DNA of 64,000 bases from Nitrospinia bacterium (GCA_029261715.1 JAJDAT010000004.1:1-64000); one strand, 5' to 3'; positions 35,501-53,508 are shown, counted from the first letter of the stretch. Numbers and translations: made by a program. The notes: a model not told the origin generated them from the letters alone.

Positions 35501-37465
35501 CGGAGATTTATACTTAGGATTAGGTAACGTAGACTCTCGCTCGGATAGAGCTCGATTGCCTTTCCAACCGTAATCCCAAACAGAACCATCATAAGAAAGG
35601 ATTTGTCCTCGTTCGTCTTCGGTATGACCCGGTTGACCTTGAGGAGGCAACATGTATTTAACCCAATCGCGGATGTTAACGGTGGGCGAATCGGTAGTCC
35701 AATCGCTTGTACCGTCTTTGTCTACAATATTAAACTTCTTTCCAAACCAATCCATAGTCTTACCAGTCAATTGATCGGATGGAACGCCTTTTGGAATACG
35801 TCCTTGCCTATCTGGTAACTCAGCCAAAGGAGGCATAACGTCTGTGCTTCCAAATGGATAATTTCCATATTGAAGGGTGTTATAAACTCTCCAATACCCC
35901 CACATACCGGCAACATAATGATGCGCTACATGGCAATGAAATAAGAAATCACCAGCTAAATGTTGACATAGTCCAGATCCGCATTCAGTTTCCAAATCAA
36001 CAACTTCGGAAGGACCAATAACTTCAACGTCAACACGATCAGAAGTGGTTCTCACTACAGGATATTTAACAGGACCATCCCAAGCGGCTGTAATCATGTT
36101 TTCCAAACTTGGTTCTCGTTTTGGAGCTCGTAACCATCGGATGGAACCACCATGTGGATGATGAGAATGGAACACTTCGCCACCGCCATGAACCAATCGA
36201 AACTTAGCAGGGTCACCCATGTAAGATCGTGGAATCGTGGTTGGAGCGTCGCCAAAAGTATAAGAACTGTAGGCTAACGACTCATCTTCGTAATGAAAAT
36301 GTCTTTCTTGTTGCGCCAAGTTATTGATACCAAACGGTTCACTGCGATAGTTCATCGCGCGAGCAGAAGGACGATAAGCGTCCGTTTGCGGGTCCCGTTG
36401 TGGAATCATTTCACCGTGGCGGTTCAAAGGTCGGAAAGATTCGTCGCCAACCTCATGATACATGAGGATAAACTCACGAAAGTCTCGATTATTTGGTTGA
36501 GCAATCATCATTTCCCAACCACTATCCAAAGGCTCGCCAGTAAAAGGACTCAAATAGGTAGATCCTTTTGGCTCAACAATGAAAGTTCCAATAAGACCTA
36601 AAGAGGAAGGATCACGTCCAGCATGACTTTGGATCATACGTCCGCCTTCTTGCTCATCAATTGGAATTTGCCATTCAAAATCTTGAGATTCTCCTGAAGG
36701 AATAACAGCTCCAGGGGTAGCGGCAGTAGCCGGTTGACCAGTGGAACTAATTATTATTTCAGAACCATTGACTTGAAACGCAATATCTTCGTCTTCAACT
36801 TGGTTTCTTACTTTGAAACGAACACAATCGCCTTGGTTTCCACGAATAACCAATGGCTGAATTAAATCGCCTTGAAGACCATTCGTAATTGCGCCTGGAT
36901 CTAACTCATCTTCACGAGCTGCGGCATTTTTCTCTTCATCCGCGCGAACGCCTTCAATGTTTTTGGTTAAAACATACATATAACCAGGGTAATAATCCCC
37001 CCATTGGTTCAATGTAATTTCTACATTGATAGCCGAAATATCGTATTGTTTAACCGGCGCAGAACTAGCGCAATGGGCTCCTTTATAAGTCTTAGCCGAG
37101 GCTTCAGTCGGCCCAAGCAAAAAGGATTGTCCCATTTGATGAGCGGACCAAGAGTCATGATACATACCACCAGAAGATGCTGGAGCGGCATGCTCTTTTA
37201 GCTCTTGTTTAACTTTACCCATCAACTTCATGAATGTTTTGTCAAGCCGCTGGCGACTGCCATTGAGACCGCTTTCATTTTCTTCACGATCAACTTGACC
37301 TTCCAACTTGTTCAACCATTCTGGATGTTCTGCCGAAGCAACTACGTGTTTCTGTCCTTTATGACCATCGGCCGCAAAAGAACCTGAAACTCCTAGCGCC
37401 AGGAACAAAACCATTCCCAGAGCGGCGACCGGGAAACCCCGTCCGCACAAGAATCGAAAAACCAT
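32513..37465 (-). CDS. Giant six-domain multicopper oxidase (secreted)
   Basis: 1650 residues, far longer than laccases (about 500). A signal peptide ends at GSFA (residue ~31). Three homologous units begin near residues 140 (KQYDISAIN), 745 (KQYAIHFIN) and 1280 (KNFSVSAVN), each ending in W-G-Y/I-W/F-R/K-V, implying six cupredoxin domains. Copper motifs: HSHHPHGG near residue 433, HCHVAHHYVAGMWG near 508, NIHPHFF near 828 and WHDH near 988. Units 2 and 3 lack the HCH motif at their ends, so only one complete set exists, shared between units 1 and 2. The ATG at 37465 is chosen (the frame also has GTG at 37468) because AGGAGG lies six bases upstream. Substrate unknown: Mn(II), Fe(II), Cu(I) or an organic are all possible. 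An HtrA-like protease gene lies 95 bp upstream. Confidence 0.9.
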   Translation of the reverse strand: MVFRFLCGRGFPVAALGMVLFLALGVSGSFAADGHKGQKHVVASAEHPEWLNKLEGQVDREENESGLNGSRQRLDKTFMKLMGKVKQELKEHAAPASSGGMYHDSWSAHQMGQSFLLGPTEASAKTYKGAHCASSAPVKQYDISAINVEITLNQWGDYYPGYMYVLTKNIEGVRADEEKNAAAREDELDPGAITNGLQGDLIQPLVIRGNQGDCVRFKVRNQVEDEDIAFQVNGSEIIISSTGQPATAATPGAVIPSGESQDFEWQIPIDEQEGGRMIQSHAGRDPSSLGLIGTFIVEPKGSTYLSPFTGEPLDSGWEMMIAQPNNRDFREFILMYHEVGDESFRPLNRHGEMIPQRDPQTDAYRPSARAMNYRSEPFGINNLAQQERHFHYEDESLAYSSYTFGDAPTTIPRSYMGDPAKFRLVHGGGEVFHSHHPHGGSIRWLRAPKREPSLENMITAAWDGPVKYPVVRTTSDRVDVEVIGPSEVVDLETECGSGLCQHLAGDFLFHCHVAHHYVAGMWGYWRVYNTLQYGNYPFGSTDVMPPLAELPDRQGRIPKGVPSDQLTGKTMDWFGKKFNIVDKDGTSDWTTDSPTVNIRDWVKYMLPPQGQPGHTEDERGQILSYDGSVWDYGWKGNRALSERESTLPNPKYKSPHPGKRHAILFEPNNGKLAWPHFKPHFGKRIPFARHHGGAPWLEPFHIQPDDTYASTEPGSGDAGPNMENSTPAKPGEHGRWSLCPAGAGRKQYAIHFINTPIELTPQVGDTAPVIDKYGLIYVLEEELALKKGDPKKAEPLVYRANVYDCVDVVLSSEWNDDDFTNFQMSKVNIHPHFFQFDNQSSDGVISGFSYDQSMRSYVQFDKKMKKDKEGHDHHVGMPVPMNAHVIQTANIGDRSIKIQMAKHSTPFHEGADVMIGIETEANKESRWIKSMDPKPKTDPHNGALEGDGIFTLHLTQPLKKAHPKGEIVTTEFVRYRMWVDADVGLVFWHDHAFGATTWPHGGIGSTIVEPWGSTYHDPVTGKEVRSGPVVDIRGTEPIAYARSGSFREIVVQLHDTVPHTAQLISAGNPPGMSRENAIAAGQSISFQMPDNMMDAAFPNLNGGTHTTGSGFNFRAASLAARLKANPDPTLLFSNKAHADPTTPLIRAYVGDSVLFRLLHGMMNETHTFVLSGHGYRPERYDRDSRVTNTIHIGIAERYDMATTAGGYQAMAGDYLFYDGRTSKLGEGSWGIFRVYDKKQDDLLMLPNNKDFAKKVKTKVCPADAPVKNFSVSAVNKGLKFNPNTEDEIEVDFERKLLAANEEGAIYVLDNEISKVSDEGHMPHPLTLRANMGDCVKVKLTNRMESGNASIHANNIAFDPMDSQGINVGNNPGDQTVAPGKAKTYTFYAHPDYNLNGALLWDFGNLLGNVRNGLYGGIIIGPRGSVYRDPETGKDITLGNSWKADVIIDKSYPENQHLQNYRDFALYFQDEDNIIGTSFMPYLQNVAGLTGVNYRLEPWTYREDEGCELGNIFTACVAADKDPATPTLKAHAGDRVMINVFGAHNEQNQMFNVDGHQWRRHINQEGSDMIDVEEFGGGEYIQAFIAEGAGGAYHNPGTYLWLNARTPYQQAGQWGYFKVLPKGENSILPLGNVTPKGVTASKEEQEKLSMK

Positions 37466-37560
37466 CACTACCCTCCTTAACGATTCATTAAAAAAATTAG
37501 AGGTTTAACAAAAACCACTAAAAAACACAAAAAAAAACAGGTAACTATCTTTCCAAACTT

Positions 37561-40182: not shown

Positions 40183-41574
40183 TTAGAATTGAAAATAAAT
40201 AAACGGTTGATCGCTAAAATCTCCCCCAAAATACATCAAAACGGTTAGCAGAATTATAAAAGAATATCTTAATCCCTTGTGCATTTTTAAGATAATTAAT
40301 GAGTTATTTTTCATCTCTTGAAATAACTCAACCACCAACAAAATCGAAATAATTAAAACTACCTCGATTAAGTTTTCAAAAAAGCTGGGCAAAATTTGAA
40401 AATTATTAAATATGCTGATTAACATTTCATAGGCTTGCTTACCTGAAGACGCCCGAAAAATTAACCACCCAAGGCAAACGAACTGATAAGTTAAAAAAAT
40501 CTGAATAATCGGATTCACTCTATTCCAAACCTTTGAAATATTGTGATGAATTCCAATTAAGATACCGTGATAAACTCCAAAAGATCCAAAACTCCAACTA
40601 GCCCCGTGCCATAATCCACCAAGCAGCATGGTTATAAGAATATTTATGCAAGTTCGTCTAGCTCCTTTTTGATTCCCTCCTAACGGGACATAAAGATAGT
40701 CTCTTAACCAGGAAGACAACGAGATATGCCATCGACGCCAAAATTCTGCAATATTTCTTGAGAAATACGGTTGTCGAAAATTCTCCATAAGCTCGATGCC
40801 CATGACTTTTGCCAATCCAATGGCCATTAAGGAATAGCCTAAAAAATCACAAAAAATTTGAAAACTGAAAGCGTAAACTGCTATCAACACTTCGCTTCCA
40901 TTGTGAAGACTTAATTGAGAAAAAATAGGATCAACAATCCGAGCCAGATTATCCGCAATAAAAATTTTTAAAAATAACCCCCAATAAAACAACAAGGCGC
41001 CTCGAAAAAAACTTTCTACTTTAATAACGCGAGGTTGAAGTATTTGAGGAAGTAATCGAGTTGCTCTTTCAATGGGTCCTGCGATCAGTTGTGGGAAAAA
41101 GGCCACATAAAGAGCAAAATCAAAAAAGTTTCTTTCAGCTTGAATTTTTCCTCGATAAACGTCGATGGTGTAGCTCATTGTCTGAAAAGTATAAAAAGAA
41201 ATTCCTACTGGCAAGATTATTTCAAGAAAATACGGTTGGACGTTCAAACCTAAAAGTCTAAATAAATCACCAAAACTCTCAGCAAAGAAACCAAAGTATT
41301 TAAAAACTCCTAATAAAGTCAGATTGAAAGCTACGCTAATAACAACGAATCGCTTTTTTATTTTTTTATCCTGATTCGATAAGATTTTAAGACCACAAAA
41401 ATAATCACAAAGAGTTGATACAAATAACAAGAATAAATACTTCCAGTTCCAACTCCCATAAAACACATAACTAGCAACCAGTAATAATCGGTTTTGATAG
41501 ATATGAGGTAAGGTCAAATACAGGCTGTAAAAAAAACAGAAGAAAAGAAGGAACTCTATGGAGTGAAACAACAT
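40183..41574 (-). CDS. MBOAT-family O-acyltransferase (AlgI/DltB-like), copy 1
   Basis: 463 residues with about ten membrane helices. Family motifs are FFPQLIAGPIERA, WRRWHISLSSWLRDYLYVPLGG and, holding the presumed catalytic His, LGGLWHGASW near residue 320. AlgI-type proteins move an acyl group across the membrane to an exported polymer and usually work with a periplasmic SGNH protein. The SGNH gene directly upstream (41690-43630) fits that pairing. This pair lacks its own ACP. It is clearly paralogous to the MBOAT at 47541-49004. Confidence 0.92.
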   Translation of the reverse strand: MLFHSIEFLLFFCFFYSLYLTLPHIYQNRLLLVASYVFYGSWNWKYLFLLFVSTLCDYFCGLKILSNQDKKIKKRFVVISVAFNLTLLGVFKYFGFFAESFGDLFRLLGLNVQPYFLEIILPVGISFYTFQTMSYTIDVYRGKIQAERNFFDFALYVAFFPQLIAGPIERATRLLPQILQPRVIKVESFFRGALLFYWGLFLKIFIADNLARIVDPIFSQLSLHNGSEVLIAVYAFSFQIFCDFLGYSLMAIGLAKVMGIELMENFRQPYFSRNIAEFWRRWHISLSSWLRDYLYVPLGGNQKGARRTCINILITMLLGGLWHGASWSFGSFGVYHGILIGIHHNISKVWNRVNPIIQIFLTYQFVCLGWLIFRASSGKQAYEMLISIFNNFQILPSFFENLIEVVLIISILLVVELFQEMKNNSLIILKMHKGLRYSFIILLTVLMYFGGDFSDQPFIYFQF

Positions 41575-41689
41575 TGATTATTTCTCAATTCAGGAAACTT
41601 TGAATAACCGATTTAGTAAAAACGGGAAAGGAGTTTATTTTTTAAGGACTTGAAATTATTTAGATTTAAATATCAAAAGGATTTCAACT

Positions 41690-43630
41690 TTATGGTTCAA
41701 GAGAGCCTTTCATATTCATGAGAGATTCAATCTTTTTTTCGTAGTTGGAAAAAGCCCCAAACGAACTGTACCCTGACCTAATTGTCTTAATTTTTTTTAC
41801 AAGTTCTAAAGCTCGGTCATAATCTTTAATTTCGACTAAATAATCTAGAGCTTTTTTATAAATAGATCTAACCAGCAAAGGAGATGAATAATACAAGTTT
41901 TTAAAGTTTCGTAAATTTAATTCTTCTGGATAAGATTTTAGATCACGTCCAATTATAGAATTTGCAAAAAGATAAGACAGATTATACTTTGGTCCAGTTT
42001 TTAGAAAAACTATGACCTCTTTAAGACTAGAAACTATTGGATTATCAATATGTCTATCGTTAAAAAAACGTTTCCACCAACCAAAGTCAAAATCTTTCAA
42101 CAAAGGGTTTAGCTGAAATGAAACGCTCTCATACTTTTTAGCCAAATCATCTTTCCCTTGTGCAAAAAGAATTTGGGCTAAGACCCAATAAGATAGTGAA
42201 AAATCTGGACTCTTTATAATTACATCTCTAAGTAAACTTTCTACTTCCGCTCTTATTTCTGTTGTTAAAAACTCTTCTTCAAACTGCAGGAAGCTTCCTA
42301 ATGAGAACTCTACTGCTGACGTGGTCCATTCTTCCTTTTTTCTAATAAAATCCGTATAAATGCATTTACTATTAAAAACAACGCACCCCGAACAAATTAA
42401 ATCTTCAATTTTATTACTTAAAAATAAACTCTTTAAATATTCAATTTCTAATCGTTCAGAACTTATTGTTTGCTTTGCAAATGGTTTTGGTAATTCAGGA
42501 TCTATTTTTAACTGGTCATTCAATGACAGTTTTACGCTATATGCTAAAATTCGATTACCGCTCCCCGTTAAATGCTCTTTATCACTCTTGAAGAAAAATT
42601 TCTTTCCTTCCGCATTTAATGTCACCCCATTATTTATATAAAAAACATTGAGATATGACTTTGCTAACTCTTGGTAAAGCTTATCTACTTGCTGGATCAA
42701 CAAAACTCTTTTTTTATCCGCTTCACATTCTTTACGATTTTCTCCAGAGCAGAAAGATGGACTAGACATAGATCCATTATTTTCCAATTCTGTCGGCAAA
42801 CTAATCAAACCGACAGAAATACCATCTTTATCTGCCCTTCGAATCACTTTCTGAAGTTCTTTTTTATAATAGAAAAGATTATGAGGCTGGAACCTATAGG
42901 GCAAAGGTTTGCGACTAGGACGAGGAATTTTCATAAGAGAGTTTTTTAACAGAACTGTTAAATTTTGTCCCCATTTAACATCTTGCACCCAGGCTCCAGA
43001 ATTGCAAAATTGAGCCGAACTAGATATTCTCGTCCCTAATTTTGTAGCGTCTTTAGAACCAGCCATAATTAGAATCATATCTGGTTTAAATTGTAATGCC
43101 TCATGCTCAAAAATAAATCTTACATCGCAAATACCATATCCCCAGTGACCAAAATTGAGTACTTGGTAAGAACGATTAGAACTTTTGGAGCTGTTTAACA
43201 TTCTTTCAAGATGCCGCGGATAATTAGCTTCGCTAGGCGCTCCTTCTCCAAGAGTCGTAGAATCTCCTAAAGTAATAATTCGGAAAATATTCGATTCGGC
43301 GATTTTATTGAAATAAGGTCCTTCATATCCCCATTTATTAATAATAGTATCTCCCTTAGCATGGCGAACCAAACCTTCTAAACCAAATAAAGAATATTCT
43401 CCTTTAATTTGCGTCGAAGTCTTTCCTTTTACTATTTCGGCAAAATAATAGTTATCATCTGCAAAAATATTTTTTCGGATATGATAAGGCAAGGGCGGGG
43501 ACGCTTCAATATGCGCAACTCTGTCTGTATACTGAGGAAATTTATCAACGTAATAATCAGCAAAAGCTTCCAACGCAATAAAAAAAATTAAAACTAAAAT
43601 TGGCTTCTTAAATTTATTTTTTTTCTCCAT
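41690..43630 (-). CDS. SGNH/GDSL hydrolase-like protein with C-terminal helical repeats, copy 1
   Basis: 646 residues. An N-terminal membrane anchor (residues ~10-25) is followed by an SGNH domain: IITLGDSTTLGEGA with the nucleophile Ser near residue 122, the Gly/Asn blocks around FGHWGYG and IMAGSKDAT, and the Asp/His pair in SDKEHLTGSGN near residue 348. The last ~250 residues are predicted helical and TPR-like (YDRALELVKKIK). By analogy to AlgJ/AlgX and PatB, it would transfer or remove an acyl group on a glycan in the periplasm. It is upstream of and paired with MBOAT copy 1; the layout mirrors 47541-50825, but the gene order is reversed. Confidence 0.82.
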   Translation of the reverse strand: MEKKNKFKKPILVLIFFIALEAFADYYVDKFPQYTDRVAHIEASPPLPYHIRKNIFADDNYYFAEIVKGKTSTQIKGEYSLFGLEGLVRHAKGDTIINKWGYEGPYFNKIAESNIFRIITLGDSTTLGEGAPSEANYPRHLERMLNSSKSSNRSYQVLNFGHWGYGICDVRFIFEHEALQFKPDMILIMAGSKDATKLGTRISSSAQFCNSGAWVQDVKWGQNLTVLLKNSLMKIPRPSRKPLPYRFQPHNLFYYKKELQKVIRRADKDGISVGLISLPTELENNGSMSSPSFCSGENRKECEADKKRVLLIQQVDKLYQELAKSYLNVFYINNGVTLNAEGKKFFFKSDKEHLTGSGNRILAYSVKLSLNDQLKIDPELPKPFAKQTISSERLEIEYLKSLFLSNKIEDLICSGCVVFNSKCIYTDFIRKKEEWTTSAVEFSLGSFLQFEEEFLTTEIRAEVESLLRDVIIKSPDFSLSYWVLAQILFAQGKDDLAKKYESVSFQLNPLLKDFDFGWWKRFFNDRHIDNPIVSSLKEVIVFLKTGPKYNLSYLFANSIIGRDLKSYPEELNLRNFKNLYYSSPLLVRSIYKKALDYLVEIKDYDRALELVKKIKTIRSGYSSFGAFSNYEKKIESLMNMKGSLEP

Positions 43631-44019
43631 TTAACTCATAATCAAAATAGCATCGTTTCTAATAAGCACGGCAAAGCTTTTACTTTTTAAATTAACTTAT
43701 CAAAGAATTGCAAGTGTTAATAATGCGCCAAGGATTAACAAACATTTTGGCCTTTTAAAAAGCATAATTTCCAAACCTCAATTAACCATTCTATTGTATA
43801 CCTCGATTCAATCTAAAAACGCTTAAAATATATTAAGAGAATTTTTTATAATTACTCTCAAAAAACAATTTCTAGAGCCATTTTCAATACTCTCCAATGC
43901 AAAAATAGCGACGAATTTCAAAATAATCTATGGTAATCTTGTTGGAGTTATAGATACGCTTCACTATTTAAGAGATAAAAAGCTTCTTTTTCCTTCCCAC
44001 CTGAGTCATTCTTAAAATT
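43631..44019. other. Divergent intergenic region between SGNH copy 1 and the MaoC-SDR gene
   Basis: No ORF of note. It carries copy B of the diverged intergenic repeat (43781-43950) whose 3' end is ~70 bp from the MaoC-SDR start. No convincing promoter was identified on either strand. Confidence 0.45.
43781..43950 (+). repeat. Diverged intergenic repeat, copy B
   Basis: Counterpart of 39077-39235 (see that entry for shared blocks). The two copies flank the minus-strand MBOAT/SGNH pair in direct orientation, 4.7 kb apart. Confidence 0.55.
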
Positions 44020-45234
44020 ATGTCTGACACATTTTTAGATCTAGATTATGAAGACATTGACCTTGGGATGGAAAAATCGTTTTCTGTTACAATTACCGAA
44101 GAACTGGTAAATAAGTTTTCTGAAATATCGGGCGACATTAGTCCCCTGCATATGGATGAAGATTTTGCAAAAGAATCCCAATTTGGTAAACGTCTTGTTC
44201 ACGGGATGTTATTAGCTTCATTTATTTCTCAAATGGTAGGAATCCATTTACCAGGAAGAAATGGTTTATGCGTATCTCAAGAAACTCAATTCCCTAACCC
44301 ATGCTTTATTGGGGATACAGTTCAAGTTGTAGGAAAAGTCGAAAAAAAATCAGACGTAGGTCGAATTTTAACTTTAGATCTCAAAATCTTCCGAGAACCA
44401 GATTGCCCCGTTTTAGTTGGAAAGATTAAAGCGATGGTATTGGCAAAAAAAAAACTTAAAAATATAGAAAAAACCGAAGGAATGGATCTATCAAACAAAA
44501 ATGTTTTAATCGTTGGAGGAAGCGGCGAAATTGGCGGGGCTATTGCAAAAACTTTAGCTCTGCATAAAGCTAATGTGACAATTACTTACAATAAAAGTAA
44601 AGAGTCGGCTCAAAAGTTAAAAGATGAAATGTTGACTGAAAATTGCGTTTTAACAGCTTACGAAGCTGACCTAACGTCTCCCGAAGGATTAAATAGTTTT
44701 TTTCAAAATCTATCTCTAGAAGACAAAAGTTTTGACACTCTAATTCATTGCGCAGCAGGAGACTTAGAACAAAAAAGTTTCGCAGATTCAACCTGGGAAG
44801 ATATGCAAAAAAATTTAGATATTTCCATTAAAGGTTTTTTTTCTATAACTCATAAACTCTTACCGGCTATGGTAGAAAAAAAATCAGGCAATATCATAAC
44901 AGTTCTAGACACTCAAGTTATTGGATCGCCTTCTGAAAAAAACGCGCCCTATGTAACTTCTAAATATGCCCTTTTAGGGCTTTCTAAAGCTCTCGCTAAA
45001 GAATATGGACCTCACGGCATTAGAGTTAACATGTTATCGCCAGGACTTACGGACACAGATTTTGTGAAATTTATGCCACAGAGAATAAAAGATACCGTAG
45101 CTTTTGAAACTCCTTTAAAGCGCATCGCTTATCCTGATGATATTGCAAAAATAGCTTTATTCCTCGTCTCCGACTTATCAGATTACTTATCTGGAGTTAA
45201 CCTTCCCATTTGTGGAGGCCACGACATGGTCTAA
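44020..45234 (+). CDS. MaoC-like hydratase fused to a short-chain dehydrogenase/reductase
   Basis: 404 residues. Residues ~10-150 form a MaoC/hot-dog domain (ISGDISPLHMDEDFAKES and VHGMLLASFIS, holding the Asp/His site of (R)-specific enoyl hydratases). Residues ~158-404 form a classical SDR with VGGSGEIGGAIAKTLA and Y311-V-T-S-K315. The position 13 before the catalytic Tyr, normally Ser, is Thr298. The fusion could interconvert enoyl-, 3-hydroxy- and 3-keto-acyl thioesters. It lies upstream of the FkbH/ACP/MBOAT genes but is separated from them by a strong palindrome and a repeat element, so joint transcription is uncertain. Confidence 0.88.
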   Translation: MSDTFLDLDYEDIDLGMEKSFSVTITEELVNKFSEISGDISPLHMDEDFAKESQFGKRLVHGMLLASFISQMVGIHLPGRNGLCVSQETQFPNPCFIGDTVQVVGKVEKKSDVGRILTLDLKIFREPDCPVLVGKIKAMVLAKKKLKNIEKTEGMDLSNKNVLIVGGSGEIGGAIAKTLALHKANVTITYNKSKESAQKLKDEMLTENCVLTAYEADLTSPEGLNSFFQNLSLEDKSFDTLIHCAAGDLEQKSFADSTWEDMQKNLDISIKGFFSITHKLLPAMVEKKSGNIITVLDTQVIGSPSEKNAPYVTSKYALLGLSKALAKEYGPHGIRVNMLSPGLTDTDFVKFMPQRIKDTVAFETPLKRIAYPDDIAKIALFLVSDLSDYLSGVNLPICGGHDMV

Positions 45235-45249
45235 AAATTTAGACCATGT
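45224..45249 (+). terminator. Perfect palindrome spanning the MaoC-SDR stop codon
   Basis: ACATGGTCTAAA and TTTAGACCATGT form a perfect 12-bp stem around AA. The TAA stop codon lies inside the left arm. There is no T-run of note downstream, so this may be a processing, pausing or attenuating hairpin rather than a simple terminator. Confidence 0.55.
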
Positions 45250-45325
45250 ACTAATTTTGATATTGCCGCTGTTTATATCAAACGATAAACTCCGAACCAA
45301 GCGTTTCTAAATAACCAAATTCTTT

Positions 45326-45433
45326 TTTAAGGGAACCTCTAAAAACTGTTTTTGGCTACGAGTGGACCTTATGAAATAAGGGCTTACGAGTTGCCCCAAG
45401 TATAAATATTAAATTATTAGAGACACCCTTAAA
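45326..45433 (+). repeat. ~108-bp element with terminal inverted repeats, copy 1 (MITE/REP-like)
   Basis: Ends TTTAAGGGAACCTCTAA and, inverted, TTTAAGGGTGTCTCTAA. An internal hairpin CCTTAT-gaa-ATAAGG lies at 45367-45381. The left end, the central GACCTTA...AAGGGCT block and the overall length match the copy at 55795-55903. No coding capacity. Confidence 0.65.
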
Positions 45434-45468
45434 TTAAAGCTCGCTTTAAACAAATCATATTCAAAAAT

Positions 45469-47283
45469 ATGACAAAACCTCACTTTCAAGAATCTATTGA
45501 GAACCTCCAAACAATAGCCGAAAACCTAAGCCCTGCACCAAGCTTAAACTCTTATTTATCTGTAAAAACAAAGATTCTTGAGATAGTTTCCGCAATCCCC
45601 ATTGAGCAAAAAACCCGAATAGCCATAATATCCACCTTTTCAATTCAACCTTTGGATCTATGTCTTATTTTGGAAAGCGCCAAGCAAGGAATCGCCTTAG
45701 AAGTGTATGTTGGAGAATACAATCAAATTTTCCAAGAAACTTACCAACTTGATAGCGGTTTAAATCAATTCAAACCGGATGCAGTGTTTTATTTCTGTCA
45801 ATTTGATCGACTCATTCCCCATAAAGGAGTTTCGGCAATTGACAAACCCGATATTGAAGAATTAAATAAAAAGATTTTAGATCTATACCATCAGTTTAGA
45901 AATCACCACAATTCCCTCTTTGTTTTTAGCAACTTTATTATCCCAATTAGTTTCCCTTATAGCAATTTACCGTCTGATGATTTATCTCAGTCTCTAAATA
46001 ATTTTAATCAAAAATTTAATCTAAACTTTCAAAACCTAGAAAATGCTTGCGTATTTGATTTAGAAAACTTAGCCCAATTCCATGGAAAGGGAAACATCAC
46101 ACATCCCTTATTAAAATTTTCCTCTGACCTTTATTTTAGCGAAGGCTTCATGGTAGAGGTCGGCAAAAAATTAGCCACAGTCATCACAAGTTATAAGTCT
46201 AAGGCTAAAAAATGTCTGGTACTGGATTGCGATAATACTCTTTGGGGGGGAATTGTTGGCGAAAGCGGTATCGACGGAATTAGACTATCCGATACAGGTC
46301 CAGGAAGCGAATTTTACGAACTACAAAAAAGAATAAAATCTTTGTATAATCGCGGAGTTATTCTTGCTTTGAATAGCAAAAACAACATGACCGACGTACT
46401 AGAAGTCCTTCAGAAACACCCTTATATGCTTCTTAAAGAAAAAGATTTCGCTTCTATTCAGGTTAATTGGGAAAATAAAGCCGAAAATATGATCACTATC
46501 GCTAACGACCTGAATATTGGACTTGATAGCATGTTATTTCTGGACGACGACCCAATTCAGAGAAAACTAGTCCGAGACCTCCTGCCTGAGGTCAAAGTCG
46601 TCGAGCTACCTAAAAACCCTGTCACGTACTTTCAGATAGTTCAAACTCTTACTGATTTCGAAACTATTAGGCTAACTGACGAGGATAAAAAGCGAGGCTT
46701 AAGTTATGCCGCTCAAAAAGAGAGAAAAGTTTTAGCGTCTAAATCTGAATCTTTCGATGAATATTTAAAAAGCCTCAACACTGTGATTGAAATTAATCCG
46801 GCTGACACCAAAGAAATAGCCAGACTTTCGCAGTTATGCCAAAGAACAAATCAATTTAATTTATCCACAAAAAGATATACCGAGTCCGAGCTAAAAGACT
46901 ATTTAAATTCATCAGATAAAAAAATATTCTCGTTAAAATCCAAAGACATTTTTGGCGATGATGGAATTGTCGGACTTGGAATTGTAAATGTTGACGACTC
47001 AACAGAATGGAAACTCGATTCATTCTTAGTAAGCTGTAGAGTTTTAGGACGAAATATAGAAAACGCTTTTATTGATTACATTTCAAGAATGGGATTAAAA
47101 TCTTCCGTTACTGTATTAAAGGCAGAATATTTACCGACTGCAAAAAACTCTCAAATAAAAACTTTTTTTGAACGCGTAAACTTTATAAAAAAAACAGAAC
47201 AAAACCATAAAATTGAATTTGAACTTGAACTAACCAATTATAAGAGGCGAACGTTTCCTGGCATACAGGTTGTCGAAAATTAA
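45469..47283 (+). CDS. FkbH-like HAD-IIIC protein (acyl/glyceryl loading onto ACP)
   Basis: 604 residues. The N-terminal ~240 residues are an SGNH-like domain; the HAD core begins at LVLDCDNTLWGG (Asp-x-Asp-x-Thr near residue 252) with NSKNN and LFLDDDPIQRKLV as later HAD motifs; the C-terminal ~180 residues are a GNAT-like domain (LAARL... KSKDIFGDDGIVGLGIV). In polyketide pathways, FkbH proteins take 1,3-bisphosphoglycerate and load a glyceryl group on an ACP. The ACP gene starts 3 bp after this stop, exactly the expected partner. A different phosphorylated acyl substrate cannot be ruled out. Confidence 0.88.
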   Translation: MTKPHFQESIENLQTIAENLSPAPSLNSYLSVKTKILEIVSAIPIEQKTRIAIISTFSIQPLDLCLILESAKQGIALEVYVGEYNQIFQETYQLDSGLNQFKPDAVFYFCQFDRLIPHKGVSAIDKPDIEELNKKILDLYHQFRNHHNSLFVFSNFIIPISFPYSNLPSDDLSQSLNNFNQKFNLNFQNLENACVFDLENLAQFHGKGNITHPLLKFSSDLYFSEGFMVEVGKKLATVITSYKSKAKKCLVLDCDNTLWGGIVGESGIDGIRLSDTGPGSEFYELQKRIKSLYNRGVILALNSKNNMTDVLEVLQKHPYMLLKEKDFASIQVNWENKAENMITIANDLNIGLDSMLFLDDDPIQRKLVRDLLPEVKVVELPKNPVTYFQIVQTLTDFETIRLTDEDKKRGLSYAAQKERKVLASKSESFDEYLKSLNTVIEINPADTKEIARLSQLCQRTNQFNLSTKRYTESELKDYLNSSDKKIFSLKSKDIFGDDGIVGLGIVNVDDSTEWKLDSFLVSCRVLGRNIENAFIDYISRMGLKSSVTVLKAEYLPTAKNSQIKTFFERVNFIKKTEQNHKIEFELELTNYKRRTFPGIQVVEN

Positions 47284-47286
47284 CTT

Positions 47287-47511
47287 ATGGAAGAAAAACT
47301 CAAAAAAATATTTGTAGATTTATTTAACTTTCACGATTTGCAAGATCACATGACACGAGACGATATACCAGACTGGGATTCTATGCGTCACCTTAGTCTA
47401 ATTCTAGAAATAGAAAAAGAATTTGACCTCAGTTTATCTATTGAAGACTCCATTCATATGGTTTCCATAAGAGCTATTAAGGAAATCATATCGGAACATG
47501 GAGATATCTAA
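47287..47511 (+). CDS. Free-standing acyl carrier protein
   Basis: 74 residues, short and acidic, with the phosphopantetheine site D-S-M at residues 31-33 (Ser32 in PDWDSMRHL). Its place between fkbH-like and MBOAT genes suggests it carries the acyl group, loaded by the FkbH-like protein and used by the MBOAT. It begins 3 bp after the fkbH-like stop and ends 29 bp before the MBOAT start. Confidence 0.9.
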   Translation: MEEKLKKIFVDLFNFHDLQDHMTRDDIPDWDSMRHLSLILEIEKEFDLSLSIEDSIHMVSIRAIKEIISEHGDI

Positions 47512-47540
47512 AATCATTTAGACCTTAAACATCCACAATA

Positions 47541-49004
47541 ATGGTTTTTCACAGTTTTGCTTTTTTAAAATTTTTCGTCATCACCTACTTTATACTTTTT
47601 GTCATATATCTTATTTCAAAAAATCTTAAAGATTCATCCACGCCGCACTTAATAAACAAAACATTTTTATTAATTGTCAGCTATTATTTTTATGCTTATT
47701 GGGACGTTCGGTTCTTATCTCTAATTATATTATCGACAGTCATTTCATATTTTTCTGGTCTTTTTATTTCAAAGGCTAGAGAGAAAAAGCAAAAAAAACG
47801 TTTTCTTTTCATTGGGCTTGCTCTTAATTTAGGAATATTAGGCTTCTTCAAATACTATAATTTTTTTACCGAATCTTTCAACGCTCTAACGGATAGCTTC
47901 GGAGTCTCTCTTCCCTTACTTAATATTATTTTACCGGTTGGAATATCCTTCTATATATTTCAGTCCATGAGCTATAGCTTGGACATTTATTTTAGAACGG
48001 TAAAACCCGCAAACAATTTTCTCGACTTGGCGTTATTTATATCTTTTTTCCCGCAACTAGTAGCCGGACCTATTGTTAGATCCAGTCATTTTTTGCCACA
48101 ACTGGAACGCTACTCCCCGCTAACATTAAAAAACTTTAGCGATGGATTTCAGATATTTCTATTTGGATTATTTTTGAAAGTAGCGGTCGCCGATAATGTA
48201 GCTCCCATTATTGACCCAGTATTTAAAGATCCTTCCGATTATTCGAGCGCAGTTATCTGGTTCGCCCTTTTGGGTTATTCAGTCCAAATATTCTGCGATT
48301 TCTGTGGATATTCTGAAATGGCTATTGGGCTTGCGCTAACAATCGGTTTCAAAATTCCACCGAATTTTAAAACTCCCTTTTTATCTTTAAACATCGCGGA
48401 TTTCTGGCGTCGTTGGCATATTTCTATGTCGTCCTGGTTTCGGGATTACTTATTTATTCCCTTACAGCTTTCTAACCTAGGCATATTCTCGCGCGAATCT
48501 CGAAACACTCTTTATAGAGCGACGATAAACTTTCTAATTGTCATGGGATTGATCGGACTTTGGCATGGTTCAAGTTGGAAGTTTGTGCTATTTGGACTTT
48601 TTCACGGTATCGGTTTGACAATCAACCACATATTATCTACATATCGTAGAACAAAAAATTCCCATATGGTAATTAACGTTATAAATTGGACAATCACCTT
48701 TTTATTCGTCCTATGCGGTTGGGTTTTATTTAGAGCCGAAAATATGTCGCTAGTTTTGGAAATGTATTCAAAAATGTTTCTGTGGGAAAGTGTCCAAAAT
48801 ATTGGAGAGTTTCAATTTAATTCCATCCTCTATCTTTTTGCTGGAATAATGGCGATCCATTTTTGGCAATTTAAACGCAATTCGGAAAACTTTATTTTTA
48901 AACCCGGTACGATAGCCTTTTCATTTTATATATTTTCACTTGTGAGCCTTATCTACTTATTCTCTCCAAGAAATTCCGTAAATTTTATTTATTTTCAATT
49001 TTGA
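47541..49004 (+). CDS. MBOAT-family O-acyltransferase (AlgI/DltB-like), copy 2
   Basis: 487 residues with about ten membrane helices. Motifs FFPQLVAGPIVRS, FWRRWHISMSSWFRDYLFIPL and the presumed catalytic His in IGLWHGSSW near residue 340 match AlgI/DltB. Unlike copy 1 it carries a longer loop (LSNLGIFSRESRNTL) between the last two motifs. The ACP gene immediately upstream is the likely donor, an arrangement like the DltB/DltC pair for D-alanylation. The stop TGA directly abuts the next gene's ATG, so the SGNH protein is translated with it. Confidence 0.92.
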   Translation: MVFHSFAFLKFFVITYFILFVIYLISKNLKDSSTPHLINKTFLLIVSYYFYAYWDVRFLSLIILSTVISYFSGLFISKAREKKQKKRFLFIGLALNLGILGFFKYYNFFTESFNALTDSFGVSLPLLNIILPVGISFYIFQSMSYSLDIYFRTVKPANNFLDLALFISFFPQLVAGPIVRSSHFLPQLERYSPLTLKNFSDGFQIFLFGLFLKVAVADNVAPIIDPVFKDPSDYSSAVIWFALLGYSVQIFCDFCGYSEMAIGLALTIGFKIPPNFKTPFLSLNIADFWRRWHISMSSWFRDYLFIPLQLSNLGIFSRESRNTLYRATINFLIVMGLIGLWHGSSWKFVLFGLFHGIGLTINHILSTYRRTKNSHMVINVINWTITFLFVLCGWVLFRAENMSLVLEMYSKMFLWESVQNIGEFQFNSILYLFAGIMAIHFWQFKRNSENFIFKPGTIAFSFYIFSLVSLIYLFSPRNSVNFIYFQF

Positions 49005-50825
49005 ATGGAACTCACTGTTAATAATTTTTTAAAAAAAACAGCTTTTACTATTCTTGGAATCATCCTTAGCCTCGCTTTCCTTGAAGTTTTTGTAAGAAGC
49101 TTTTTTTATCAAAATATAACTCCTAGTCTTACGGCTCCAGGCTTTGGTATTCCAAGCGCAATGCGGCCTAACTTCAAAAGCGAAGCTCTTAATTCTGTCG
49201 GGGTGAAATACAAGATTCAGACAAATAATAATCGGATTAGGCGAAGTGGTCCCATCGGATATAAGAAACCTCCAAACACATTTAGAATCTTGTGTATTGG
49301 GGACTCCATGACATTCGGATTATCAATATCAAATAATGAAACCTATTCTTATTATCTGGAGGAAATTCTAAATAAAAATGCAGAAGAGGTTAAATTTGAA
49401 GTTCTTAACGCTGGAGTTACAGGCTGGGAACCAGTTGATTACTTTCTCTATTTAAAAAACGAAGGAATCAAATATTCTCCCGACTTAGTCATAGTTGGCA
49501 TAGACGCCTCGGACATGGTTAACTTAAAGTCCAATTTTTTTGAATTTGAAAAGTTAAGCGCTAAGAAATCGCCCGATGTCGTCAACATTTCATTAATAAA
49601 TCCAAACATCAAACCATACTTTGACCAAGTTACGGAAACTATCAGGGAAGGGATTTTAACCCTCCCTTTCTTTTTACAAATATCGGAAGTTTCGCAATTT
49701 CTTAATTTAGTTCGAAAAAACCTTTCTATTGATTTCACTCAACCCCCAAAACCGACAGATTCTTTAACTAAACTAGTCTCTAGCAAAGCTATTAATTCTA
49801 AAGATATCGTCAACTGGGATATTGCAATTGATTCTGAAAGACTAGAGTTCGATCAATCAAGCTTATCAGAAACCCAAGACATCTTATTTGCCATCATCCA
49901 AAACAAAATTAAAAACCTCGCAAAAGAAAAAAACTTTAAATTGGCCTGGGTAAAAATGCCATACGCACCGGAAGTGTTTGGCACTATAGATCCCAAAAAA
50001 GATAAGGACAAATCACCGCTTCCTTCTTCAAAGTTTATAAACTTATTAAAAGAATTTAAAGCTTTTAGCGGCAAAAATCCTATTCCCTTATATTTCCCCC
50101 ACGATATTCATTTCACTCCTTCAGGCAATCGTTTATTTGCCTATTTACTACTCAATTCTCTGATCGAATCAAAAAAAATTGATGGAAAATATTTAGACGT
50201 CAATACCCCAACAATTATCCAAGAAATTGAAAAGTCCAATGGGGAGATAGAGGAAAAGATAAAGCAATTGCCCGTTTGGAATTTAATTTTAGCAAAAAAA
50301 TATAAAAGCCTTCATCAACTCGCACGTGCAACAGAAACGCTAAAACTTTATCTCGAACAAAAACCTAATTCAGGCGAAGGATTATTCCAAATGGGATTAA
50401 TCTATTACGATCTAAAACAATGGGATCAAGCTTTAAAGTATCTGAGCCGGGCTTTCAAATTCAACAAGTTCTGGGGTCCTGAAATTCTAAATTTGCAGGC
50501 TAAATCTTATTATAGAAAAGGCGACCTTTTAAATGCAGAAAAGCTTTGGTATCAAGCCATAAACTTGACTCCCAACAATTCAAAACTATATAGAAACTTA
50601 GGGAGCTTGTACTTTGACAATGAGCGTTACAAACAGGCGGTGGAGCAATACAACATATCCCTACGACTAAATCCTAATGAATATAAAGTCTATTTAGTTT
50701 CAGGACTCGCTTATCTAAAATTACAAGAACACGAAAAAGCTATTACGATGTTCCAAAATGTCGTAAGACTTCAACCTAACAATGCTATGGCTAAAGGAGC
50801 TTTATTCCAATTAACTCAAAAATAG
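49005..50825 (+). CDS. SGNH/GDSL hydrolase-like protein with C-terminal TPR repeats, copy 2
   Basis: 606 residues. One membrane helix (residues ~10-27) is followed by an SGNH domain: ILCIGDSMTFGL with the nucleophile Ser near residue 100, NAGVTGWEPVDY, and the Asp/His pair in HDIHFTPSGN near residue 365. Residues ~430-606 hold four recognisable TPR units (for example LFQMGLIYYDLKQWDQALKY and LYRNLGSLYFDNERYKQAVE). The domain order and length match the minus-strand copy at 41690-43630. It should act in the periplasm on the acyl group delivered by the MBOAT; the TPRs may dock the export machinery. Confidence 0.88.
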   Translation: MELTVNNFLKKTAFTILGIILSLAFLEVFVRSFFYQNITPSLTAPGFGIPSAMRPNFKSEALNSVGVKYKIQTNNNRIRRSGPIGYKKPPNTFRILCIGDSMTFGLSISNNETYSYYLEEILNKNAEEVKFEVLNAGVTGWEPVDYFLYLKNEGIKYSPDLVIVGIDASDMVNLKSNFFEFEKLSAKKSPDVVNISLINPNIKPYFDQVTETIREGILTLPFFLQISEVSQFLNLVRKNLSIDFTQPPKPTDSLTKLVSSKAINSKDIVNWDIAIDSERLEFDQSSLSETQDILFAIIQNKIKNLAKEKNFKLAWVKMPYAPEVFGTIDPKKDKDKSPLPSSKFINLLKEFKAFSGKNPIPLYFPHDIHFTPSGNRLFAYLLLNSLIESKKIDGKYLDVNTPTIIQEIEKSNGEIEEKIKQLPVWNLILAKKYKSLHQLARATETLKLYLEQKPNSGEGLFQMGLIYYDLKQWDQALKYLSRAFKFNKFWGPEILNLQAKSYYRKGDLLNAEKLWYQAINLTPNNSKLYRNLGSLYFDNERYKQAVEQYNISLRLNPNEYKVYLVSGLAYLKLQEHEKAITMFQNVVRLQPNNAMAKGALFQLTQK

Positions 50826-50954: not shown

Positions 50955-52274
50955 ATGGAATCTTCGCAAATAAAGAATCGAAAGATTTTTAATTTCTCTC
51001 CTTTCGGGAAAGAAAGAGAACTAAACTCAAAAGAAGAAAAATCTCTTTTTCAAACGCTTCATAAAGCGCGTAAACGGATGGGAAAATTTTTCTTAGAAAA
51101 CCAAATTCTAGGGAGAAAAGGTTCTATTGGCTGTGTTTCCCTTGAAATTAGCCAGCGATGCAACTTGGATTGTAGCTTATGCTATCTATCAGAAAGTTCA
51201 AATTATGTAGACGATATCCCTTTTCAAGAACTTAAAAATAGGTTAGACGGCGTACGCGATCATTTCGGAGTGGGAACCAACGTTCAAATCAGCGGCGGCG
51301 ACCCTACATTAAGAGATCGAGTTGAACTAGTTGCAATTGTGAAATATGCCAGAGAAATTGGCCTACTTCCGGCGCTTTTTACAAACGGTATTAAGTGTTC
51401 ACGAAGTCTTTTAAAAGAGCTCTCCGAAAATGGATTGTCAGACGTAGCCTTTCATGTCGATTTGTCCCAAGAACGTAAAGGATATAAAACAGAACACGAT
51501 TTAAACGCCGTGAGATTAGAATACATCAAAAGAACTAAAGGACTACCTCTCATGGTAGTTTTCAACACTACCGTCTTCGAAAAGAATTTTCACGAAGTTA
51601 AAAATATAGCAAAGTTTTTTGCGCAAAATGCGGATACAGTTGATTTTGCTTCGTTTCAACTCCAAGCCGATACAGGACGGGGAACCATTAAAGAAAGACC
51701 CAATAAAATATCTACAGAGACTATTCGAGAGCAAATCAATCTTGGAGTTGGCTCCTCTCTATCTTGGGACGCTATTTTAGTCGGTCATCCTAAATGCCAC
51801 AGTTACGTCCCAACCTTTGCTATCAACGAAAAATGTTATGAAATTATTGACGACCCAGAGTTTTTTGGAGAGTTTCTTAAAGATTTCTCACACATATCCC
51901 ATGATCGAAGAGAGAGTGTTTTAAAAATAGCTTGGCGTTATATAAAAGCGGCAAACCAAAAACCAAGTTGGTATATTAAAGGTATAAAATACTTTTTACC
52001 GCGACTTTGGAAAGTAAAAGGCGACTTGCTTAGAAGCAAAGGCAAAATAAATAAAATTTCTTTTTTTGTTCAAAACTTTATGGACCAAAATAACTTGGAC
52101 CAGGAAAGAATAGACGCCTGTTCCTTCATGGTTATGACACACGAAGGCCCCATTTCCATGTGCCTCCATAACTCTAAAAGAGACGATTACATATTAAAAC
52201 CCTTTATTGTTGAGTCTGAAAAAGGATCTGAGCTATATCATCCATTTAAAGCTAGTCAAGTAGCTTCGAAATAA
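50955..52274 (+). CDS. Radical SAM protein of unknown substrate
   Basis: 439 residues. The [4Fe-4S]/SAM motif is C69-x3-C73-x2-C76 in SQRCNLDCSLCYLSE; ISGGDPTL is the usual glycine-rich SAM contact. The C-terminal region has further Cys residues (ACSFMVMTHEGPISMCLHN) that may bind a second cluster. The N-terminal ~55 residues are basic and not typical. It heads an operon with a DUF547 lipoprotein and a MauE-like membrane protein, 9 bp and then an overlap apart. The substrate may be a lipid or a cofactor rather than a peptide, since no obvious peptide precursor lies within the operon; this is inference. Confidence 0.82.
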   Translation: MESSQIKNRKIFNFSPFGKERELNSKEEKSLFQTLHKARKRMGKFFLENQILGRKGSIGCVSLEISQRCNLDCSLCYLSESSNYVDDIPFQELKNRLDGVRDHFGVGTNVQISGGDPTLRDRVELVAIVKYAREIGLLPALFTNGIKCSRSLLKELSENGLSDVAFHVDLSQERKGYKTEHDLNAVRLEYIKRTKGLPLMVVFNTTVFEKNFHEVKNIAKFFAQNADTVDFASFQLQADTGRGTIKERPNKISTETIREQINLGVGSSLSWDAILVGHPKCHSYVPTFAINEKCYEIIDDPEFFGEFLKDFSHISHDRRESVLKIAWRYIKAANQKPSWYIKGIKYFLPRLWKVKGDLLRSKGKINKISFFVQNFMDQNNLDQERIDACSFMVMTHEGPISMCLHNSKRDDYILKPFIVESEKGSELYHPFKASQVASK

Positions 52275-52283
52275 TTATCGCTT

Positions 52284-53066
52284 ATGTTTCTTTTAAAAAT
52301 AAAACGCTTTTTAATTATATGTTCTTTATTAGTTAGCTCTGGCTGCGCCACAGTGGTCCATCCGCCAACTGCTCCCTATATCGTTACGGAACGATCTTCA
52401 ATTATCCCTTGGACCAAGGTTTTGATTTCTTCAGTAGATAAAAACGGTCGGGTCGATTTTCAAGGACTCTCTGAAGACACGAAAGACCTACAAGCTTACG
52501 TTGCCTTTATCGCTAGAGTCAGCCCAGAATCATATCCCTTTCCAAACGAAGATCGCGAAATGGCTTACTATATGAACTCATATAACGCCTTAGCAATGTT
52601 TGGAGTGATTAATCACAACATCCCAAAAGATTTTTTTAGCTTTTCAGACAAAGCAAAGTTTTTTAAATTCACCGAATACATCATTGGTGGACGTCCAATT
52701 TCTCTGTACGACTATGAAAACAAAATTATTCGTCCATTGGGCGATCCTAGAGTTCACTTTGCCTTAAATTGTATGGTTGTTTCTTGTCCTCGCTTACCTC
52801 AAAAGCCATTTCAAGCTGGGACAATTAACGATCAATTAGACAAAGCGGCACGGGAATTTGTTAACAGCGACAAACATGTTCAAGTTGATAAAGACCAAGA
52901 AATTGCAAAAATTTCCGAAATTTTTAAATTTTATAAAGAAGATTTTGTCAATTCTCAGCAATCCAAATCGTTAATTAAATACATTAATCGTTATCGAACA
53001 AAAAAGATCCCCGAAAACTTCGATGTTGAATTTCTTCCATACAATTGGACCATTAACCGGCAGTGA
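52284..53066 (+). CDS. DUF547 lipoprotein
   Basis: 260 residues. A lipoprotein signal peptide ends at the lipobox LVSSGC (residue ~21), so it is membrane-anchored in the periplasm. The DUF547 domain is recognisable from YYMNSYNALAMFGVI and GDPRVHFALNCMVVSCPRL. The function of the family is not established, though its conserved His/Cys pattern suggests a thiol-type hydrolase or transferase fold. It starts 9 bp after the radical SAM gene and overlaps the next gene by 44 bp. Confidence 0.85.
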   Translation: MFLLKIKRFLIICSLLVSSGCATVVHPPTAPYIVTERSSIIPWTKVLISSVDKNGRVDFQGLSEDTKDLQAYVAFIARVSPESYPFPNEDREMAYYMNSYNALAMFGVINHNIPKDFFSFSDKAKFFKFTEYIIGGRPISLYDYENKIIRPLGDPRVHFALNCMVVSCPRLPQKPFQAGTINDQLDKAAREFVNSDKHVQVDKDQEIAKISEIFKFYKEDFVNSQQSKSLIKYINRYRTKKIPENFDVEFLPYNWTINRQ

Positions 53067-53508
53067 AATATTAAAAAGGCTACTCCAGTATTCGATAGCC
53101 TCTATTTTATTGGCTACAGGTATTGGCAAACTGCTCGATGTGCCGGGATTTATAGAAGTCATTAAAACCTATCAGGTTTTCCCTCACTGGACTCTTCCAT
53201 TCATAGCAACCATGATGGTTTTAATCGAGCTAAAGCTTTCAGAAGTTTTGTTTCGAGGAAAAAAGCTTTTCGAAGCGGCTCTTTTTTCAATTGGGCTTCA
53301 CTCAATTTTTACGATCTGGTCAACCATCGCCCTACTTCGAGGCCTTGAGATCTTAAACTGTGGATGTTTCGGCATTTTTTGGGCTCGCCCATTAACCTGG
53401 TTAACGGTATTTGAAGATATCATTATGGTTGGAGCGTCATATTTATTGGCACGTCTTGCACATAAAGATAACCGTCCATTTAATTCAATTCCAGAAAGTA
53501 GGCTTTAA
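53023..53508 (+). CDS. MauE/DoxX-like integral membrane protein
   Basis: 161 residues, four membrane helices. The first helix contains ATGIGKLLDVPGFIEVIKTY, matching the MauE/DoxX start, and a NCGCFG motif sits before the last helix as in MauE proteins, which are linked to disulfide formation in methylamine dehydrogenase. The two Cys of NCGCFG are present. The ATG at 53023 lies inside the end of the DUF547 gene, giving a 44-bp overlap, so the two are coupled. Its redox role is by family analogy only. Confidence 0.82.
   Translation: MLNFFHTIGPLTGSEILKRLLQYSIASILLATGIGKLLDVPGFIEVIKTYQVFPHWTLPFIATMMVLIELKLSEVLFRGKKLFEAALFSIGLHSIFTIWSTIALLRGLEILNCGCFGIFWARPLTWLTVFEDIIMVGASYLLARLAHKDNRPFNSIPESRL

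Follow-up and report, generated by a model that had tools for sequence, protein, structure and literature searches.

The described systems closest to the locus reported here combine an MBOAT membrane acyltransferase with an SGNH-type partner. In the Dlt system (DltA-DltC-DltB-DltX-DltD), which transfers an amino-acyl group, a dedicated carrier protein is served by the adenylation enzyme DltA, and the acyl-Tyr hexapeptide resides in a separate protein, DltX. In PatA/PatB, AlgI/AlgJ and WssH/WssI, the MBOAT itself carries a C-terminal FXYXXF motif and is accompanied by a separate periplasmic SGNH protein (PMC12148441). The acyl-Tyr hexapeptide mechanism has been demonstrated in DltX and PatA, and according to a 2025 paper MBOAT/SGNH pathways other than Dlt operate without a carrier protein (PMC12148441). 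A different way of charging carrier proteins is known from FkbH-type domains, which load glyceryl from 1,3-bisphosphoglycerate and replace adenylation domains in doing so (PMC8949500; PMC7489565). In a PKS pathway tool an FkbH loading module is written as yielding D-lactate-ACP (PMC7901079).

The window analysed in this work is a stretch of 64,000 nucleotides (contig C4:1-64000) from the 5.33-Mb genome of a Nitrospinia bacterium that possesses six MBOAT genes. On its plus strand, genes for an FkbH-like protein (604 amino acids; 45469-47283), an ACP (74 amino acids; 47287-47511), an MBOAT (487 amino acids; 47541-49004) and an SGNH-TPR protein (606 amino acids; 49005-50825) form a run at 45469-50825 with gaps of exactly 3, 29 and 0 bp. 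The four genes and their spacing had been described in an earlier note made from the sequence alone, and all coordinates were found to be correct. That note also listed a second MBOAT/SGNH-TPR pair on the opposite strand. Such a pair is present, with the SGNH gene (646 amino acids; 41690-43630, minus strand) followed by the MBOAT gene (463 amino acids; 40183-41574, minus strand), but no TPR match was obtained in this second SGNH protein even at E values up to 10. A Pfam scan added a gene which the note had missed: a MaoC-SDR fusion (404 amino acids; 44020-45234, plus strand; PF01575, 71 bits; PF13561, 158 bits), located between the minus-strand pair and the FkbH run.

The wider surroundings include a polysaccharide cluster at approximately 12-28 kb of the window with glycosyltransferases, a Polysacc_synt_2 dehydratase and a Wzz/kinase-like protein. 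An unusual protein of 1651 amino acids (32513-37468) contains repeated multicopper-oxidase-like motifs, as judged by eye from its sequence. Downstream of the FkbH run, genes for a radical SAM protein, a DUF547 protein and a MauE-like membrane protein lie in a row (50955-53508). Among 77 genomes of the window's phylum, 15 have conserved the radical SAM protein; its gene (50955-52274) was considered as a member of the system and rejected, as FkbH was seen alongside it in only one other of these 15 genomes. It looks unrelated to the acylation genes.

Gene content and order, which are observed directly, were compared with the known systems. With Dlt, the run shares the dedicated carrier protein, the MBOAT and the SGNH-type partner, the ACP gene preceding the MBOAT gene by 29 bp and the SGNH gene following it directly; in addition, DltB is the best solved relative of the MBOAT. 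It differs from Dlt in that an FkbH-like protein stands in for DltA (no AMP-binding gene was present among the Pfam-scanned cluster genes), in that a separate DltX is absent and the hexapeptide is fused to the C-terminus of the MBOAT, in that the MBOAT scores below the DltB cut-off (184 versus 375 bits), and in the predicted donor, a hydroxyacyl instead of an amino-acyl group. The C-terminal FXYXXF motif and the separate SGNH protein are shared with the PatA/PatB type of pair, whereas those pairs are stated to be carrier-free and to use acyl-CoA while here, as known from gene content, an ACP and its loader are part of the gene run. The cluster thus lacks two features that define Dlt (adenylation loader, separate DltX) and one that has been stated for the PatA type (independence of a carrier protein), but has the core of an MBOAT-SGNH pair: an MBOAT fold with the catalytic His, the FXYXXF motif and, encoded next to it, an SGNH protein that has the Ser and Asp-x(-x)-His motifs. 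FkbH-ACP loaders of the tetronate and methoxymalonyl type and D-lactyl loading modules likewise consist of FkbH and ACP, with dehydratase and ketoreductase as extra steps; unlike there, no polyketide or peptide synthase is found here, and the product would be passed to a membrane acyltransferase. FkbH-type genes also occur in other loci for sugar decoration (Niveispirillum FkbH-ACP-WcbI-SDR; C. jejuni flagellar-glycan gene cj1302), where MBOAT-SGNH transmembrane transfer is not seen.

The FkbH-like protein (TIGR01686, 294 bits with a cut-off of 147) consists of an N-terminal domain, a HAD-IIIC domain and a C-terminal GNAT-like domain. Its HAD motif (D253-x-D255-x-T257) and C523 within an SCR motif, the putative acyl-bearing residue, are invariant among 11 homologues. 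In the predicted structure (pLDDT 84) the fold of the N-terminal and HAD parts corresponds to 3slr and that of the C-terminus to GNAT acyltransferases. HAD-IIIC motif, C-terminal domain and a partner ACP encoded 3 bp downstream together place the protein in the FkbH-like class, and by analogy with characterized members it is predicted to load glyceryl from 1,3-bisphosphoglycerate. The ACP is divergent and gave weak profile matches; nevertheless, the DSM phosphopantetheine site is present in WDSMRHLSLILEIEKEF, and the protein matches ACPs that adjoin FkbH genes in relatives with E values down to approximately 1e-14.

The only relevant solved relative of the plus-strand MBOAT is DltB (E = 6e-30), and its PF03062 match (75 bits) is above the cut-off. 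It contains the histidine motif WHG at position 341. Both MBOATs of the window (PF03062, 92 bits for the minus-strand protein) terminate in FIYFQF, which matches the FXYXXF acyl-Tyr shuttle. The SGNH-TPR protein, predicted to be the final transferase, is composed of an N-terminal membrane helix, an SGNH domain with GDSM at position 99 and DIHF at position 367, and C-terminal TPR repeats. Its TPR match is strong and its GDSL profile score lies just below the cut-off; in the structure model the SGNH part is poor (pLDDT 54) and the TPR part alone is confident. The second SGNH protein has GDST and DKEHL motifs. SGNH identity is predicted from sub-threshold profiles plus motifs. The architecture with TPR had been called unusual, which holds in part: SGNH partners of MBOATs that are long or bear TPR repeats recur in this genome and in the order.

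The sister of the second MBOAT is encoded on contig C49 of the same genome (57% identity) next to an ACP gene, and the minus-strand pair is likely a separate or sister acylation pair. Further MBOAT loci were noted. On contig C49 (L033:4419-9324), genes for a methyltransferase, an ACP, an MBOAT and an SGNH-TPR protein point in one direction, a carrier-linked set without FkbH. Contig C23 (L032:3112-9960) encodes an AMP-binding enzyme, an MBOAT without FXYXXF tail, an SGNH-TPR protein and a further SGNH protein, an arrangement nearer to Dlt logic. Five loci of Nitrospinota (L128, L129, L130, L131 and L043) contain a second, shorter type of MBOAT (approximately 400 amino acids) that has no FXYXXF tail and is linked to FkbH, to an SGNH protein and mostly also to an ACP.

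We assign a probability of roughly 0.6 to the reading that the cluster directs carrier-protein-dependent extracytoplasmic O-acylation, with an FkbH-loaded ACP, conversion to lactyl by MaoC-SDR, an MBOAT, and an SGNH-TPR protein that delivers the group to a polysaccharide. The acyl chemistry and the glycan acceptor are inferred as follows. FkbH would dephosphorylate 1,3-bisphosphoglycerate from glycolysis and transfer D-glyceryl to the phosphopantetheine of the ACP. The MaoC half could then dehydrate glyceryl-ACP to pyruvyl-ACP, which the SDR half would reduce to lactyl-ACP. On the cytoplasmic side, the ACP would donate the hydroxyacyl group to the MBOAT, whose own C-terminal FIYFQF would then receive it on its Tyr at the outer face. 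Finally, the catalytic Ser of the SGNH-TPR protein would receive the group and hand it on to a surface or secreted polysaccharide. The last two steps are modelled on what has been demonstrated for Dlt and PatA/B. A transfer to a glycan outside the membrane had already been suggested in the earlier note; it agrees with the MBOAT-SGNH mechanism and with the nearby polysaccharide genes, and the acceptor is a prediction.

The proposal of a lactyl donor derives from the MaoC-SDR gene. The nearest solved structure of the MaoC half is 3-hydroxyacyl-thioester dehydratase 2 (3ir3), and the SDR half is FabG-like. The catalytic motifs GDISPLHMD and TQVIGSPSEKNAPYVTSK are retained, with Thr where SDRs usually have Ser. 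A bryostatin-type loading module provides a precedent for FkbH-derived lactyl-ACP. No KS or FabH gene was observed within 8 kb in 55 FkbH loci bearing MaoC or MBOAT, the search profiles having been built from the KS and FabH proteins of this genome; this argues against chain extension and favours a C3 acyl group. As a dehydratase and a ketoreductase are added to FkbH with no ketosynthase nearby, lactyl-ACP is the simplest product to be predicted. The presence of the MaoC-SDR gene thus makes lactyl the more likely donor in this cluster, judging from the genes, and of the earlier suggestion of "glyceryl or another hydroxyacyl group" the hydroxyacyl is kept while glyceryl is revised to lactyl.

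Alternatively, the same system may move glyceryl, with MaoC-SDR being a mere neighbour from another pathway such as general 3-hydroxyacyl metabolism. In line with this, MaoC-SDR is a separate open reading frame that ends 234 bp upstream of FkbH, and a perfect 11-bp hairpin (45224-45249, plus strand), a candidate terminator or regulatory site, spans its stop codon. Owing to gap and hairpin, MaoC-SDR may be transcribed apart from the FkbH run, although such sites are no more numerous in the region than in shuffled sequences, which makes the hairpin weak as evidence. Moreover, MaoC is absent from 21 of 28 FkbH-MBOAT loci, S. meliloti included, and lactyl therefore cannot be the general donor; plain glyceryl fits those versions of the cluster that are devoid of MaoC and SDR, for example in S. 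meliloti. Against a mere neighbour stands a locus from another genus of the window's phylum (L125), where ACP, MaoC, SDR, FkbH, MBOAT and SGNH genes, MaoC and SDR being separate, all point in one direction and are no more than about 12 bp apart. A second cassette, FkbH-ACP-MaoC-SDR, is located on contig C30 of the same genome as the window (L029), and MaoC-SDR fusions adjoin FkbH in several phyla. Altogether, 25 of 102 FkbH loci have MaoC and SDR, fused or separate, at a distance of up to 8 kb from FkbH, and five of these 25 also contain an MBOAT. A glyceryl donor with an unconnected MaoC-SDR gene is accordingly considered unlikely for this cluster.

The linkage of FkbH and MBOAT genes, for which the earlier note had proposed a neighbourhood survey, was determined in the best 80 of more than 500 FkbH candidates, a choice that biases the sample toward the window's FkbH. 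An MBOAT gene was present in 20 of these 80 loci; in 18 it was no further than seven genes away from FkbH. Based on the MBOAT density in 45 of these genomes, only 0.38 loci were expected (P ~1e-27); hence, the linkage is not due to chance. Directly observed across seven phyla, the 18 linked loci belong to Acidobacteriota, Bacteroidota, Pseudomonadota, Vulcanimicrobiota (Eremiobacterota), Doudnabacteria, Nitrososphaerota and Micrarchaeota, the last case being a 4.5-kb metagenome contig that should be treated cautiously. Among these best 80 of more than 500, FXYXXF is the ending of most MBOATs near FkbH and xVYxAF that of a few; next to most of them lies a gene whose product has a GxS or DxxH motif. 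In the other phyla, SGNH-like partners were called by GxS and DxxH motifs; Pfam mostly gave no match for them, and a few gave weak matches to DUF1574, DltD or SGNH. Within the window's phylum, an MBOAT lies within approximately 5 kb in eight of 20 FkbH matches. The analysed set as a whole comprises 28 MBOATs near FkbH, most of them with an FXYXXF-type tail.

On pSymB of the laboratory model Sinorhizobium meliloti (L182:6201-11236; L178), in which the system would be open to testing, genes for an MBOAT, an SGNH-like protein, an ACP and FkbH precede, by a few kilobases, a set of capsule genes that comprises export genes and RkpR. In strain 2011, where the locus occupies approximately 631-636 kb of NC_020560, the ACP is intact. 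The SGNH-like gene is annotated as "TonB-dependent receptor", which is likely a misannotation. The Dlt-like logic with FkbH in the position of the adenylation enzyme, as put forward before, is well supported by the recurrent linkage, by DltB as closest solved relative and by the catalytic residues.

These data also bear on the possibility that FkbH-ACP-MaoC-SDR feeds a small molecule or an N- or O-acyltransferase that acts on sugars in the cytoplasm, and that the adjoining MBOAT-SGNH pair is unrelated and uses acetyl-CoA like PatA/AlgI. No MBOAT was present in 74 of the 102 FkbH loci examined, some FkbH loci adjoin genes for other transferases such as WcbI, and acyl-CoA has been reported as donor in other MBOAT/SGNH pathways (PMC12148441). 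However, the genes of the run are co-directional and separated by only 3, 29 and 0 bp, the linkage in the surveyed best 80 of more than 500 candidates far exceeds the approximately 0.4 loci expected, and the same partners recur in distant phyla, which renders such a chance neighbourhood improbable. In a tree of 72 MBOATs the FkbH label changes at least nine times, and the idea of a single clade of carrier-using MBOATs was rejected on these grounds. Linkage to FkbH must have been gained or lost repeatedly. Together with three MBOATs that lack a neighbouring FkbH gene, the window's MBOAT forms one group (100/100), so that carrier use is not clade-wide and the sequence of an MBOAT does not reveal which donor it prefers.

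A natural-product cluster of the tetronate or polyketide type, with FkbH-ACP providing an extender or release unit, is very improbable and was rejected: FkbH-ACP clusters with KS/FabH do exist, for example on Methylosinus and Pseudalkalibacillus plasmids, but no KS/FabH was found within 8 kb in any of the 55 MBOAT- or MaoC-bearing FkbH loci, the KS genes of this genome are on other contigs, and an MBOAT in the membrane together with an SGNH partner would be out of place in such a cluster.

The complete path had been taken to be undescribed in the earlier note, and the open-access literature indeed yielded nothing relevant on FkbH with MBOAT, carrier-fed MBOAT/SGNH, FkbH with MaoC for polysaccharide, or a gellan glyceryl transferase. 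The system is a real and coherent variant of MBOAT-SGNH acylation. In this cluster a small sugar-derived acid, lactyl or glyceryl, is probably made on a carrier protein and moved across the membrane to a surface polysaccharide. About an even chance is given to the broader notion of a widespread modification of surface polysaccharides, in which glyceryl-ACP or, where MaoC-SDR is present, lactyl-ACP is formed from 1,3-bisphosphoglycerate and the group is exported by an MBOAT that uses a carrier, as in Dlt, and has the acyl-Tyr shuttle built in, as in PatA, yielding O-glyceryl or O-lactyl glycans in many phyla.

If true, this would be a further donor arrangement for MBOAT-SGNH surface acylation and would contradict the statement that pathways of this kind other than Dlt have no carrier protein (PMC12148441). 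It would link a central glycolytic intermediate to the decoration of the cell surface, suggest how O-lactyl and O-glyceryl polysaccharides may be made, and give a testable function to many genes for "HAD-IIIC family phosphatase" that adjoin MBOAT genes.
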